Source: Nosocomiicoccus ampullae
GTDB taxonomy: Bacteria > Bacillota > Bacilli > Staphylococcales > Salinicoccaceae
Length of the DNA stretch: 64,000 bases
NCBI RefSeq assembly: GCF_019357495.1
Contig: NZ_CP079110.1
Location: 1,426,001-1,490,000 of the forward strand
Direction of reading: 5' to 3'
Shown here: positions 18,837 through 40,822 of the stretch, one piece after another
Layout: every line of letters begins with the position of its first letter
Numbering within the stretch: position 1 is the first letter of the stretch
Notes under the pieces: model-generated
What the model saw: the letters and a program-made list of their open reading frames with translations, nothing else
Database searches by the model: none
What the model was told of the DNA's origin: nothing
Position numbers and translations under genes: made by a program

Positions 18837-19048
18837 ACTTTACTATTTAACATTTTTTCTTAAAAACTGTTAATTATATCGATTTATTTTACATTTTTTG
18901 ACGAACTCGATTGCATTTTGTCAAATAAATCTTTTTATTTAACACTTTCCGTCCTCAGCGCACACTTTTCGTTAATTAAATCTTTTTATCTTACAAAACT
19001 AAGATAATTGCATAAGTTTTTGTTAATTAAACGATACAACTGCCTGAC
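18825..19048. repeat. Phased palindromic repeat array, locus 1
   Basis: Three 30-bp imperfect palindromes start at 18866, 18917 and 18968, and a left half-unit starts at 19019. The step is exactly 51 bp each time. A right half-unit ends at 18854, one 41-bp step before the first. The consensus left arm is TTTGTTAATTAAATC and the right arm is a near-inverse, TTTATTTAACAAA. The 21-bp spacers are mostly different, but some share a core like GATTGC or AATTGC. It fills the gap between hslO and its terminator. No open frame spans it. I know of no described family. Confidence 0.8.
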
Positions 19049-37647: not shown

Positions 37648-38372
37648 TATGCTTCACCTGCTTTCACAATGATGTTATCACCGTATGCTTCTTTTAAGTT
37701 TTTCTCAGTGAATACTTTATCGACTGATCCGTAAGCTAATACACCATGGTCAACTAATATAAGACCATCAAAATAGTCGTGCACTTTACTTAAATCATGA
37801 TGAACAATTAATATCGTAATGCCGTCTCTTGCCATTTCTTTTAAGACGTTGACGATAACTTTTTCACTTTTAACATCAATCCCAACAAATGGTTCATCTA
37901 AAAACACAAGATCACTATGTTGCGCGAGTGTTCTAGCCATTAATATGCGCTGAAATTGTCCGCCAGATAGCTCTCCGATTTGACGATCTTTAAATTCTTC
38001 CATACCAACCTTTTTAAGACTTTCTAACGTACGTTCCTTTTCTTTTTTACCTGGGCGTTTAATAAGCCCGAGATTTGGATACGTACCCATCAATACACAA
38101 TCAAATACAGTCATTGGAAAAGTCATATCTATATTTGCTCGCTGAGGGACGTAAGACGTACGCTTTGCATGTTTTTTCATACGCTCACCATTAAAAGTCA
38201 CTTGACCTGAACTTGGCACAAGATCTAGCATGCCTTTAATCAAAGAAGACTTACCAGCACCGTTCGAGCCGATAATGCCATATATATTACCTGTTTCTAG
38301 TTCAAATGACGCATCACGTATCGCATGGATATGTTTATCGTATACGACATTTAAATCTTCTACCTTTAGCAT
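37647..38372 (-). CDS. Metal ABC transporter ATP-binding protein
   Basis: 241 residues, the ATPase of the manganese-type importer. Walker A GSNGAGKSS (about 35-43), Q-loop VPQRANID, signature LSGGQFQR, Walker B LVFLDEP and the H-loop VHHDLSK are all present. It is first in the operon. Its promoter (38403-38431) overlaps an inverted repeat that may be a metalloregulator site. The three-gene operon lies between ispE and veg, which are adjacent in S. aureus. Confidence 0.94.
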   Translation of the reverse strand: MLKVEDLNVVYDKHIHAIRDASFELETGNIYGIIGSNGAGKSSLIKGMLDLVPSSGQVTFNGERMKKHAKRTSYVPQRANIDMTFPMTVFDCVLMGTYPNLGLIKRPGKKEKERTLESLKKVGMEEFKDRQIGELSGGQFQRILMARTLAQHSDLVFLDEPFVGIDVKSEKVIVNVLKEMARDGITILIVHHDLSKVHDYFDGLILVDHGVLAYGSVDKVFTEKNLKEAYGDNIIVKAGEA

Positions 38373-38402
38373 TTTATATCACCCTATCTTTGTATAATTT
38401 TT

Positions 38403-38438
38403 AGGATACCATATATTTATTTTTTAGTAAACCCTAAA
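38403..38438 (-). promoter_or_regulatory. Promoter and candidate metalloregulator site of the Mn-type transporter
   Basis: Minus strand: -35 TTTACT (38426-38431), 17-bp spacer, -10 TATCCT (38403-38408). TTTAG (38423-38427) and CTAAA (38434-38438) form an inverted repeat over the -35, resembling the TTTAGG half-sites of DtxR/MntR-family operators. Identity of the regulator is inference. Confidence 0.45.
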
Positions 38439-38548
38439 CATTTAGAAAATGATGAGAGTTTGAGGGTGGAGTTGCATTTATTCGTGTGAATAATTGTTTT
38501 TTTGCAGATAAAGAACGACTGTGTGAGCATAGAATTCATGTTTCGTTG

Positions 38549-38776
38549 CTCTTATTTACAAATTCGAGCTTGCAGCACTAAAATTTGTTAAATATATCCA
38601 GTTATTTAACAAAAAATCAGAATTGCGAACTATTTTTGTTAGATAAAAAAATATATTTAACAAATATCAATCGACTCAAGCAAAATATGTTAAATATATC
38701 CGGATATCTAACAGAATCACCATTTTTTTGTTAAATATAATTTTGCGAAGTATTTTATTACCCTTGAGAAGATAAA
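38549..38776. repeat. Direct repeat copy 1 with phased palindromes, locus 2
   Basis: 228-bp element nearly identical to 39730-39956 (a handful of substitutions and one 1-base indel). It contains 30-bp palindromes starting at 38584, 38635 and 38686, exactly 51 bp apart, then a fourth partial unit 41 bp later and a half-unit about 50 bp before the first. Arms are of the type TTTGTTAAATATATC and TTATTTAACAAA. Spacers include AGAATTGCGAAC. The stretch 38439-38548 before it holds no recognisable gene. Confidence 0.9.
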
Positions 38777-38807
38777 CAGTCTATTTCAACCGCTTAGCTG
38801 CAAGACA

Positions 38808-38887
38808 CCACGCTTTTCATCTCTCTTATTTACAAATTTATGCCTTGGATGCGGAAATTTGTTAGATATATCCAGTTATTTAACAAA
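38808..38887. repeat. Direct repeat copy 3, partial, before the peptide gene
   Basis: About 80 bp matching the first part of the 39715-39797 copy, including CGCTTTTCATCTCTCTTATTT and one full 30-bp palindrome (38858-38887). It ends 18 bases before the start codon of the peptide gene, so the palindrome could act in that gene's control region. Confidence 0.8.
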
Positions 38888-38905
38888 AAAGATGATACAT
38901 TAATA

Positions 38906-39121
38906 ATGAGTGAGTCTATCTCTAAAGATAAAGAAATTACTACCAATTATTTAATATCAGAAAATGAAGTTAGTACATATGCATTAACAGACAAACAAGT
39001 CTTCGCTTTAGAATGGGCTTGTATATTCTCAAGCTACATGGGATGTATAGGAACATCACTAGCCGCAGGAGCAGCTGGAACACTAATTTCCAGACCTGTA
39101 GTAACTGTTACTGGAGCCTAG
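38906..39121 (+). CDS. Bacteriocin-like small peptide precursor (candidate)
   Basis: 71 residues. A charged, leader-like N-terminal half (MSESISKDKEITTNYLISEN and on to TDKQVF) is followed by a hydrophobic, Gly/Ala/Ser/Thr-rich half with two cysteines seven residues apart (WACIFSSYMGC) and GTSLAAGAAGT, ending VVTVTGA. This leader-plus-core layout resembles ribosomally made antimicrobial peptides, but I do not recognise the family and no modification enzyme or exporter lies nearby. The ATG at 38906 has only a weak RBS; an ATG at 38840 would run through the repeat. A second frame just downstream (39129-39200) encodes a peptide-like stretch, hinting at a frameshift. Next comes an immunity-like gene. 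Confidence 0.5.
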   Translation: MSESISKDKEITTNYLISENEVSTYALTDKQVFALEWACIFSSYMGCIGTSLAAGAAGTLISRPVVTVTGA

Positions 39122-39219
39122 GAGGATGAGCTTGCAGATACCTTTTCCAAACACCAGTTGAACAATTCGGCGGAAAACAAGCCGCTTGTAAATTTTTTAG
39201 TTAAAGTGAGTTTTATTTT

Positions 39220-39399
39220 ATGAGTAAAAGAAAAAATTATATGAAAATAATTTCATGGATAATACTTATAATATTTATTGATGTAATATTATTCTCGTTT
39301 TTACCTGATTCTAATTGGTTAGAAATATTATTTAGTTTCTCTACTATCATGATCGTGGGTGCAATAGGAGTAACTATAATTTTAAAAATATTTGATTAA
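39220..39399 (+). CDS. Small two-helix membrane protein, possible immunity protein
   Basis: 59 residues, MSKRKNYMKIISWIILIIF at the start, with two predicted membrane helices (about 9-27 and 37-56) joined by a short polar loop (LPDSNWLE). The N-terminus is basic, so it should face the cytoplasm. Size and topology match the small immunity proteins often encoded after bacteriocin genes. The RBS AAAGTGAG lies 11 bases upstream. A terminator at 39458-39491 closes the unit. Immunity is inferred from context only; no family was recognised. Confidence 0.55.
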   Translation: MSKRKNYMKIISWIILIIFIDVILFSFLPDSNWLEILFSFSTIMIVGAIGVTIILKIFD

Positions 39400-39457
39400 T
39401 TTTTATTCCTGTTTACTTCTAGTGTGACCAACAGCGAAGCAAGATAAAAAAGTTGTA

Positions 39458-39491
39458 GAATGACTTGAGAACAAACGACCTCAAGTCATTC
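39458..39491 (+). terminator. Terminator after the peptide cassette
   Basis: 12-bp perfect stem GAATGACTTGAG/CTCAAGTCATTC with a 10-base loop followed by GAATTTTT. From here to 39729 I see no gene. Confidence 0.75.
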
Positions 39492-39729
39492 GAATTTTTA
39501 GTATGTTTATGTTCGATATTCTAGAAAAATTTCCTCATAATGATAGCATCTTTAAACCTTTACATCATCTGCATGTTGCCTCTCATTCTTTATTTCGATT
39601 TTATAGACATTCATGACTAAAGGCCCATACAAGGTCTTATACACTCAATTTTATGATTTTTAAGGAAATCCTTTAGTTGATTAAAACCTAATTTCACTGC
39701 TTAACATCAGGAGACTACGCTTTTCATCT

Positions 39730-39956
39730 CTCTTATTTACAAATTCGAGCTTGCAGCACTAAAATTTGTTAAATATATCAAGTTATTTAACAAAAAATCA
39801 GAATTGCGAACTATTTTTGTTAGATAAAAAAATATATTTAACAAATATCAATCGACTCAAGCAAAATATGTTAAATATATCCGGATATCTAACAGAATCA
39901 CAATTTTTTGTTAAATATAATTTCTCGAAGTATTTTATTACACTTGAGAAGATAAA
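39730..39956. repeat. Direct repeat copy 2 with phased palindromes, locus 2
   Basis: 227-bp near-identical copy of 38549-38776, in the same orientation. Palindromes start at 39765, 39816 and 39867 (51-bp steps), then a partial unit 40 bp on. With copy 1 it brackets the peptide cassette in a 1.4-kb interval. The 92 bases up to 40048 hold the upstream region of the next gene. Confidence 0.9.
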
Positions 39957-40048
39957 ACTCCTTCGTCCACCCACTTTATCTTCAAAAAACTACCACTATA
40001 ACAAAACTCATGTAAACTATAAGTAACGATTGAACTAGGAGAGATATT

Positions 40049-40822
40049 ATGGATGCTTATAAAGTTCGCGAACGTATTAGAAGTGGGCAACATAAGAAAA
40101 CAACTTCTGGACTTGCAAATGATAATGTGCAAGCGAATCTTGTTGTCCTCCCTAAAGAGTATGCATTTGATTTTTTACTTTACGCGATGCGCAATAAAAC
40201 ACCCATTCCAATTATCGAAGTTTTAGAAGATGGTAAATTTAAGAGTCGATACGCAAAAGATTCCGACATTCGCACAGATATTCCGTTTTATAATATTTAC
40301 AAAAATGGTGAACTCGTTGACACAGTCGAGGACGTAAAAGAATTTTGGCAAGATGATTTTGTATCATTTTTAATTGGATGTAGTTTTACGTTTGAAGACG
40401 CGCTTATAAAAGCAAATATCCCACTTAAACATATTGAAGAAAATAAAAACGTTGCGATGTTTAAAACAAATATCCCAACTGAACGCGCAGGAGTATTTCA
40501 TGGAAATATGGTCGTTTCAATGCGCCCAATCAAAAAAGAATTCGTTGACCAGGCTGTTGAAATTACGTCACAGTTTAAAGATATGCACGGCGGGCCAGTA
40601 CATATCGGTGATCCAAGCGCAATCGGTATTACTGATATTAGAACACCTGATTACGGAGAAGCTATTGAACTATCTGAAGATGAAGTTCCTGTATTTTGGG
40701 GATGTGGTGTAACTCCACAAAACGCTATTTTACAAGCGAAGCCACCAATTATGATCAGTCATAAACCAGGATATATGTTTATTACAGATATTAATAACGA
40801 AGCGTTTAAAGATTCGAAATAA
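40049..40822 (+). CDS. DUF1445 putative hydro-lyase (YcsI / D-glutamate cyclase family)
   Basis: 257 residues, the usual length. Family features include VRERIRSGQHKKTTSGLANDN, LVVLPKEYAFDFLLYAMRNK, SFLIGCSFTFEDAL and the C-terminal VFWGCGVTPQNAILQAKPPI and SHKPGYMFITD. The fold is related to mammalian D-glutamate cyclase; bacterial members are annotated only as putative hydro-lyases. The start follows AGGAGAG. It is a single gene on the plus strand between the repeat cassette and a bidirectional terminator. The substrate is unknown. Confidence 0.9.
   Translation: MDAYKVRERIRSGQHKKTTSGLANDNVQANLVVLPKEYAFDFLLYAMRNKTPIPIIEVLEDGKFKSRYAKDSDIRTDIPFYNIYKNGELVDTVEDVKEFWQDDFVSFLIGCSFTFEDALIKANIPLKHIEENKNVAMFKTNIPTERAGVFHGNMVVSMRPIKKEFVDQAVEITSQFKDMHGGPVHIGDPSAIGITDIRTPDYGEAIELSEDEVPVFWGCGVTPQNAILQAKPPIMISHKPGYMFITDINNEAFKDSK

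Follow-up and report, generated by a model that had tools for sequence, protein, structure and literature searches.

A Nosocomiicoccus-specific intergenic element with helically phased palindromes, a putative protein-binding platform, flanks a bacteriocin-like gene remnant

Introduction

Interspersed repeats in bacteria tend to be attributed either to relics of mobile elements or to structured RNAs. Is either explanation adequate for two near-identical repeats that lie on either side of a small peptide-coding region in Nosocomiicoccus ampullae? The original prediction for the 64,000-nucleotide stretch of chromosome analysed here (the window, contig positions 1,426,001–1,490,000) held that these repeats carry palindromes at 51-bp steps, and that recombination between them would delete a bacteriocin-like gene. 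A literature search on repeats in Nosocomiicoccus returned, as far as titles and abstracts reveal, no paper on such an element, and the family described below is real, unusual and genus-specific, and apparently previously undescribed.

Results

The two repeats, A (38541–38776) and C (39722–39956), are complete plus-strand copies of about 236 bp, 97% identical and in the same orientation, as predicted. Repeat comparison aligns 38541–38728 with 39722–39909 (188 nt, 97%) and, past a one-base indel, 38721–38776 with 39901–39956 (56 nt, 93%). In A, a left half-site in 51-bp phase (TTATTTACA, 38552–38560) is followed by three palindromes free of mismatches, P1 (GTTAAATATATCCAGTTATTTAAC, 38587–38610), P2 (38638–38661) and P3 (38689–38712), each 51 bp from the last, and by a right half-site (GTTAAATA, 38730–38737) lying 41 bp after P3, an arrangement that matches the genome-wide architecture. 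The palindromes of C occupy 39768–39791, 39819–39842 and 39870–39893, with the right half-site at 39910–39917. The suspected partial third copy also proved real: B (38801–38890, plus strand) is truncated after P1 (38861–38884) and retains only that palindrome and the left half-site, with an inner spacer unlike those of A and C. A further array, predicted near 18866–19048 to be of the same type, was recovered at 18838–19030 on the minus strand between cysteine synthase-like and hslO-like genes; its palindromes (at 18869, 18920 and 18971, together 18869–18994) each carry one or two mismatches, and the array is conserved in Ca. N. stercorigallinarum. Across the window, a 36-nt palindrome family has seven copies with 51-bp steps inside each repeat, and 11 palindromes were found with up to three mismatches (3.1 ± 1.7 in shuffled sequence), seven of which have none.

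Searching the organism's own 1.549-Mb chromosome for more copies gave 30 matches to the repeat, which palindrome searches resolve into 16 arrays. All well-formed arrays consist of a left half-site (TTATTTAC or TATTTAAC) that keeps the 51-bp phase within one base, three palindromes GTTARWTA-N8-TAWYTAAC, and a right half-site GTTARWTA at a fixed offset of 41 bp, an architecture seen in 52 arrays from three Nosocomiicoccus species. Palindromes of 24 bp are separated by 27-bp spacers and nearly always number three. Among adjacent palindromes closer than 150 bp in the loci collected from the three species (108 pairs listed, 107 without one odd pair), 94 of 107 are exactly 51 bp apart and five are 50 bp apart; the others come from tandem copies or from arrays whose middle palindrome was missed. 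Within the elements, AAA/TTT tracts peak at a period of 10.2 bp (power 1.05 vs 0.16 ± 0.03 when shuffled). The 51-bp spacing contributes to this peak as a harmonic, yet the peak dominates the neighbouring harmonics; with a helical turn of 10.2 bp, steps of 51 and 41 bp amount to five and four turns. P2 (38638–38661 in A, and its counterparts) is systematically asymmetric, with one arm reading GTTAG and the other GTTAA, which gives the element a polarity. The element tails end in loosely conserved ATAAA-type sequences.

The element is also present in Ca. N. stercorigallinarum and N. massiliensis. Allowing up to three mismatches, the 51-bp two-palindrome pattern occurs at 30, 28 and 50 places in the three Nosocomiicoccus genomes (30 being the window's own), and at none in 30 other genomes of the bacterial family; a reversed pattern used as control scored zero. 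The exact pattern was found in no other genus over 84,980 species, and in no viral contigs. All 16 copies in the window's genome lie between genes, five of them between convergent genes, and most arrays occupy orthologous intergenic positions in all three species, which identifies them as old residents. Copy number nevertheless differs between species and some loci have no array in one species, so that individual copies are not each essential. One array common to both sister species is missing from the window's genome, where the whole intergenic stretch has been replaced; the site shows neither a clean empty site nor a target duplication. Arrays also cluster at a distance of 84–307 kb from the origin, with dnaA at position 319 of the contig; this interval was chosen post hoc and nothing is claimed from it.

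In N. massiliensis the element occurs in many tandem copies, and many contigs end in arrays (seven loci). The distances from P3 to the next P1 in these tandem copies (133 and 164–165 bp) are near whole numbers of 10.2-bp turns. At one site in this species (L076, 1–252, contig C2), the end of an IS3-like transposase ORF directly adjoins a palindrome array; IS insertions are known to occur at REP elements.

Comparison of orthologous arrays separates the half-sites from the sequence around them. Half-site identity between the window's genome and that of Ca. N. stercorigallinarum is 97.3%, compared with 83–90% in the spacers and 84% in the flanks; in the six arrays orthologous with N. massiliensis, half-sites are 90.5% identical, spacers 54% and the 8-bp palindrome centres 56%. 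Overall spacer identity is about 87% and about 54% for the two species, respectively. As judged from these alignments, selection is visible on the half-sites only, and concerted evolution among copies can be an alternative source of their conservation. A CRISPR array was rejected because the spacers at a locus are shared by descent between species and the palindromes are degenerate.

The coding region between A and C is the 5′-truncated remnant of a bacteriocin-like precursor gene. Its first part (38906–39121, plus strand, frame 1) encodes a sequence that shares 53% identity with the C-terminal region of a 222-residue staphylococcal protein, and the gene continues after a frameshift in another frame (39130–39204, plus strand) with ACRYLFQTPVEQFGGKQAACKFFS, which matches ...ACRYVFQTAVEKYGGKDAACKILS of the relatives. 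That best relative has a C-terminus rich in cysteine, glycine and alanine and is followed by a small DUF6007 membrane protein; in the window, the place of the DUF6007 ORF is occupied by a 59-residue membrane ORF (39220–39399, plus strand) of weak similarity to it (E 0.014). Of the ~222-residue precursor only the C-terminal third is kept; its final 24 residues lie beyond the frameshift, and the gene's 5′ portion is gone as far as the edge at which element B is cut off. By its reading frames the enclosed gene is a pseudogene fragment, and the bacteriocin-like gene of the original prediction is not intact. Relatives were found in genomes of what we take, from the order-level kinship shown, to be the Staphylococcus group; none was found in the two sister Nosocomiicoccus genomes, nor in plasmids. 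The fragment has no match to TIGR04450 (Gram-positive halocin C8-like bacteriocin), and the most distant relative scores 24.5 bits against a curated cut-off of 27. Being near that cut-off and not over it, this relative makes "bacteriocin-like" a fair description and "bacteriocin gene" an unfair one.

At the orthologous locus, Ca. N. stercorigallinarum has a single element, preceded by the sequence that flanks A on the left and followed by the one that flanks C on the right, and nothing else. Read from the alignment, this one-element state is the product expected from A × C recombination and would equally be the state that preceded the cassette. The predicted deletion is thus upheld insofar as one- and two-copy states exist between species, but not in its direction: neither sister genome contains the peptide gene, which makes gain in the window's lineage the simpler order, and such a gain is probably the better account than loss in Ca. 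N. stercorigallinarum. Because the gene is both truncated and frameshifted, a deletion would remove a pseudogene; the deletion idea, seen here as a between-species difference only, is plausible and concerns a dead gene. In N. massiliensis the locus is interrupted by contig ends, and the spacer of its left element is closest to that of B (53/62), a likeness from which A- and B-type elements would seem to have stood in tandem here before the cassette. Duplication in tandem without a cassette in this species also indicates that bracketing a cassette is not a general property of the element. In the window's genome, three loci have an element–ORF–element arrangement in direct orientation, enclosing the peptide remnant, a NERD-domain gene and a 154-residue ORF. 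The NERD-domain protein (L052, 10654–11565) and the 154-residue protein, which has no assigned family (L048, 4117–4581), are both kept in the sister species.

Candidate recombination enzymes were sought in the genomes. A serine resolvase acting on res-like subsites was ruled out, as no serine recombinase gene (PF00239) was found in the window's genome. Three tyrosine recombinases (PF00589) are present there, two of a size from which we presume them to be XerC and XerD. The third lies between two oppositely oriented hsdS-like specificity genes at about 1330.8–1334.1 kb (L109, 59–3293), likely a shuffling type I restriction specificity locus, and was rejected as cognate enzyme because it adjoins hsdS-like genes on both sides. 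A RAYT transposase was likewise rejected as driver: Y1 transposases (PF01797) were found in none of the three Nosocomiicoccus genomes, with positive controls.

Discussion

Several known repeat systems share features with this element. The STAR repeats of Staphylococcus, in which one to seven copies of the GC-rich direct 14-bp motif T(G/A/T)TGTTG(G/T)GGCCC(C/A) are separated by 40–44-bp spacers, are nearest in habit, being intergenic and interspersed with steps of ~50 bp, and likewise have locus-specific spacers conserved within lineages and local expansion or contraction (PMC3532100). Unlike STAR, the Nosocomiicoccus motif is AT-rich and palindromic, occurs in sets of constant make-up, three palindromes with two half-sites, and has 27-bp spacers with nearly always three palindromes; the STAR motif itself does not occur in the window with up to two mismatches, nor exactly in 135 loci. 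REP/BIME elements, which are tied to RAYT transposases and in E. coli are bound by proteins such as IHF and gyrase (PMC2817692), share the extragenic palindromes in regular composite arrays, whereas the Nosocomiicoccus element has no Y1 transposase, is AT-rich, numbers 16 copies, and has near-symmetric palindromes that keep their positions from species to species. BOX elements of Streptococcus pneumoniae, with a variable number of boxB modules and features of mobile elements (PMC3049150), are similarly modular intergenic repeats with defined ends and inner modules. Here, by contrast, the inner module count is fixed and the half-sites appear to be under selection. The sopC centromere of the F plasmid comprises twelve 43-bp repeats, each with a 16-bp palindrome; like such plasmid centromeres, whose palindromes serve a dimeric DNA-binding protein, the arrays space their palindromes regularly, but they are dispersed over the chromosome in sets of three with no adjoining partition genes, and the parallel is one of resemblance only.

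Whether the element acts as DNA or as RNA is addressed by the palindrome arms. If it were a structured RNA, a bidirectional terminator or a stabiliser of mRNA 3′ ends, the inverted half-sites would form transcript hairpins, and both strands do fold better than shuffled sequence (z of –4.2 and –3.5), although this is expected of any palindrome array; the five of 16 arrays between convergent genes would also suit such a role. However, at none of P1, P2 and P3 do the inverted arms complement each other better than shuffled partners do, and exact inverted symmetry of P2 is found in only 2% of copies where 23% would be expected, owing to the tendency of its arms towards GTTAG on one side and GTTAA on the other. 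Partner arms thus lack covariation, as do stems between neighbouring palindromes. The stems are moreover AT-rich with spacing fixed to the base, an Rfam search of the 64-kb window matched rRNA and tRNA only, and the sole terminator-like site in 38300–40100 falls inside the pseudogene and outside the elements. We consider an RNA function quite improbable. Instead, the lack of arm covariation, the 10.2-bp periodicity and the steps of five and four turns together point to a protein on one face of double-stranded DNA.

On a rival account, the element is a non-autonomous mobile repeat of MITE or REP/BIME type, spread by a transposase in trans and now mostly immobile, with the palindromes as transposase signals. 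Its dispersed, short, AT-rich, intergenic and palindromic character is compatible with this origin, as are the ATAAA-type tail ends, copy numbers that vary from species to species, N. massiliensis having tandem copies, and the array that the window's genome lacks and both sister species have. We nonetheless judge it rather unlikely, given that most copies occupy the same loci in every species, that the missing site has no clean empty site or target duplication, that the three genomes lack a Y1 transposase and the window's genome a serine recombinase, and that a dead repeat would need neither exact spacing nor selection on half-sites. A recombination site akin to integrons or dif modules, where the palindromes are the targets of a recombinase and the elements bracket movable cassettes, would account for the three direct element–ORF–element loci and for the one-element state in the sister species. 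Yet all species retain two of those three "cassettes", the majority of elements enclose nothing, and elements that are neighbours at a locus resemble each other and not a mobile common copy; with no resolvase-family gene, and only the two XerC/XerD-sized tyrosine recombinases and the one between hsdS-like genes, this account is very improbable.

The explanation we favour, with slightly more belief than doubt, is that of a Nosocomiicoccus-specific, vertically inherited intergenic element that may serve as a phased protein-binding platform. Its function-bearing parts would be the eight GTTARWTA half-sites (the left one, three inverted pairs and the right one), held on one helix face through steps of 51, 51 and 41 bp (5, 5 and 4 turns), with A/T-tracts in the same phase. 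A putative dimeric DNA-binding protein could occupy the palindromes cooperatively and bend or wrap the stretch of ~190 bp, which might then act as a chromosome-organising or insulating site as opposed to a promoter operator. The number of elements at a locus would change by local tandem duplication. At the present locus, a foreign DNA fragment of staphylococcal type would have lodged between tandem copies, with B cut after P1, and the lodged fragment could be lost again through homologous recombination of A with C.

In its most specific form, this proposal gives Nosocomiicoccus a dedicated putative protein that would wrap the DNA of about 16 centromere-like arrays, helically phased and dispersed over the chromosome; we regard this as possible but doubtful. 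If true, dispersed centromere-like wrapping arrays would have no described counterpart among the sites of bacterial chromosomes. With their base-exact, helix-phased spacing and the apparent restriction of selection to half-sites, these arrays allow the idea of a genus-specific DNA-architecture system to be put to the test, and the locus illustrates how a foreign gene fragment can be held by tandem repeats.
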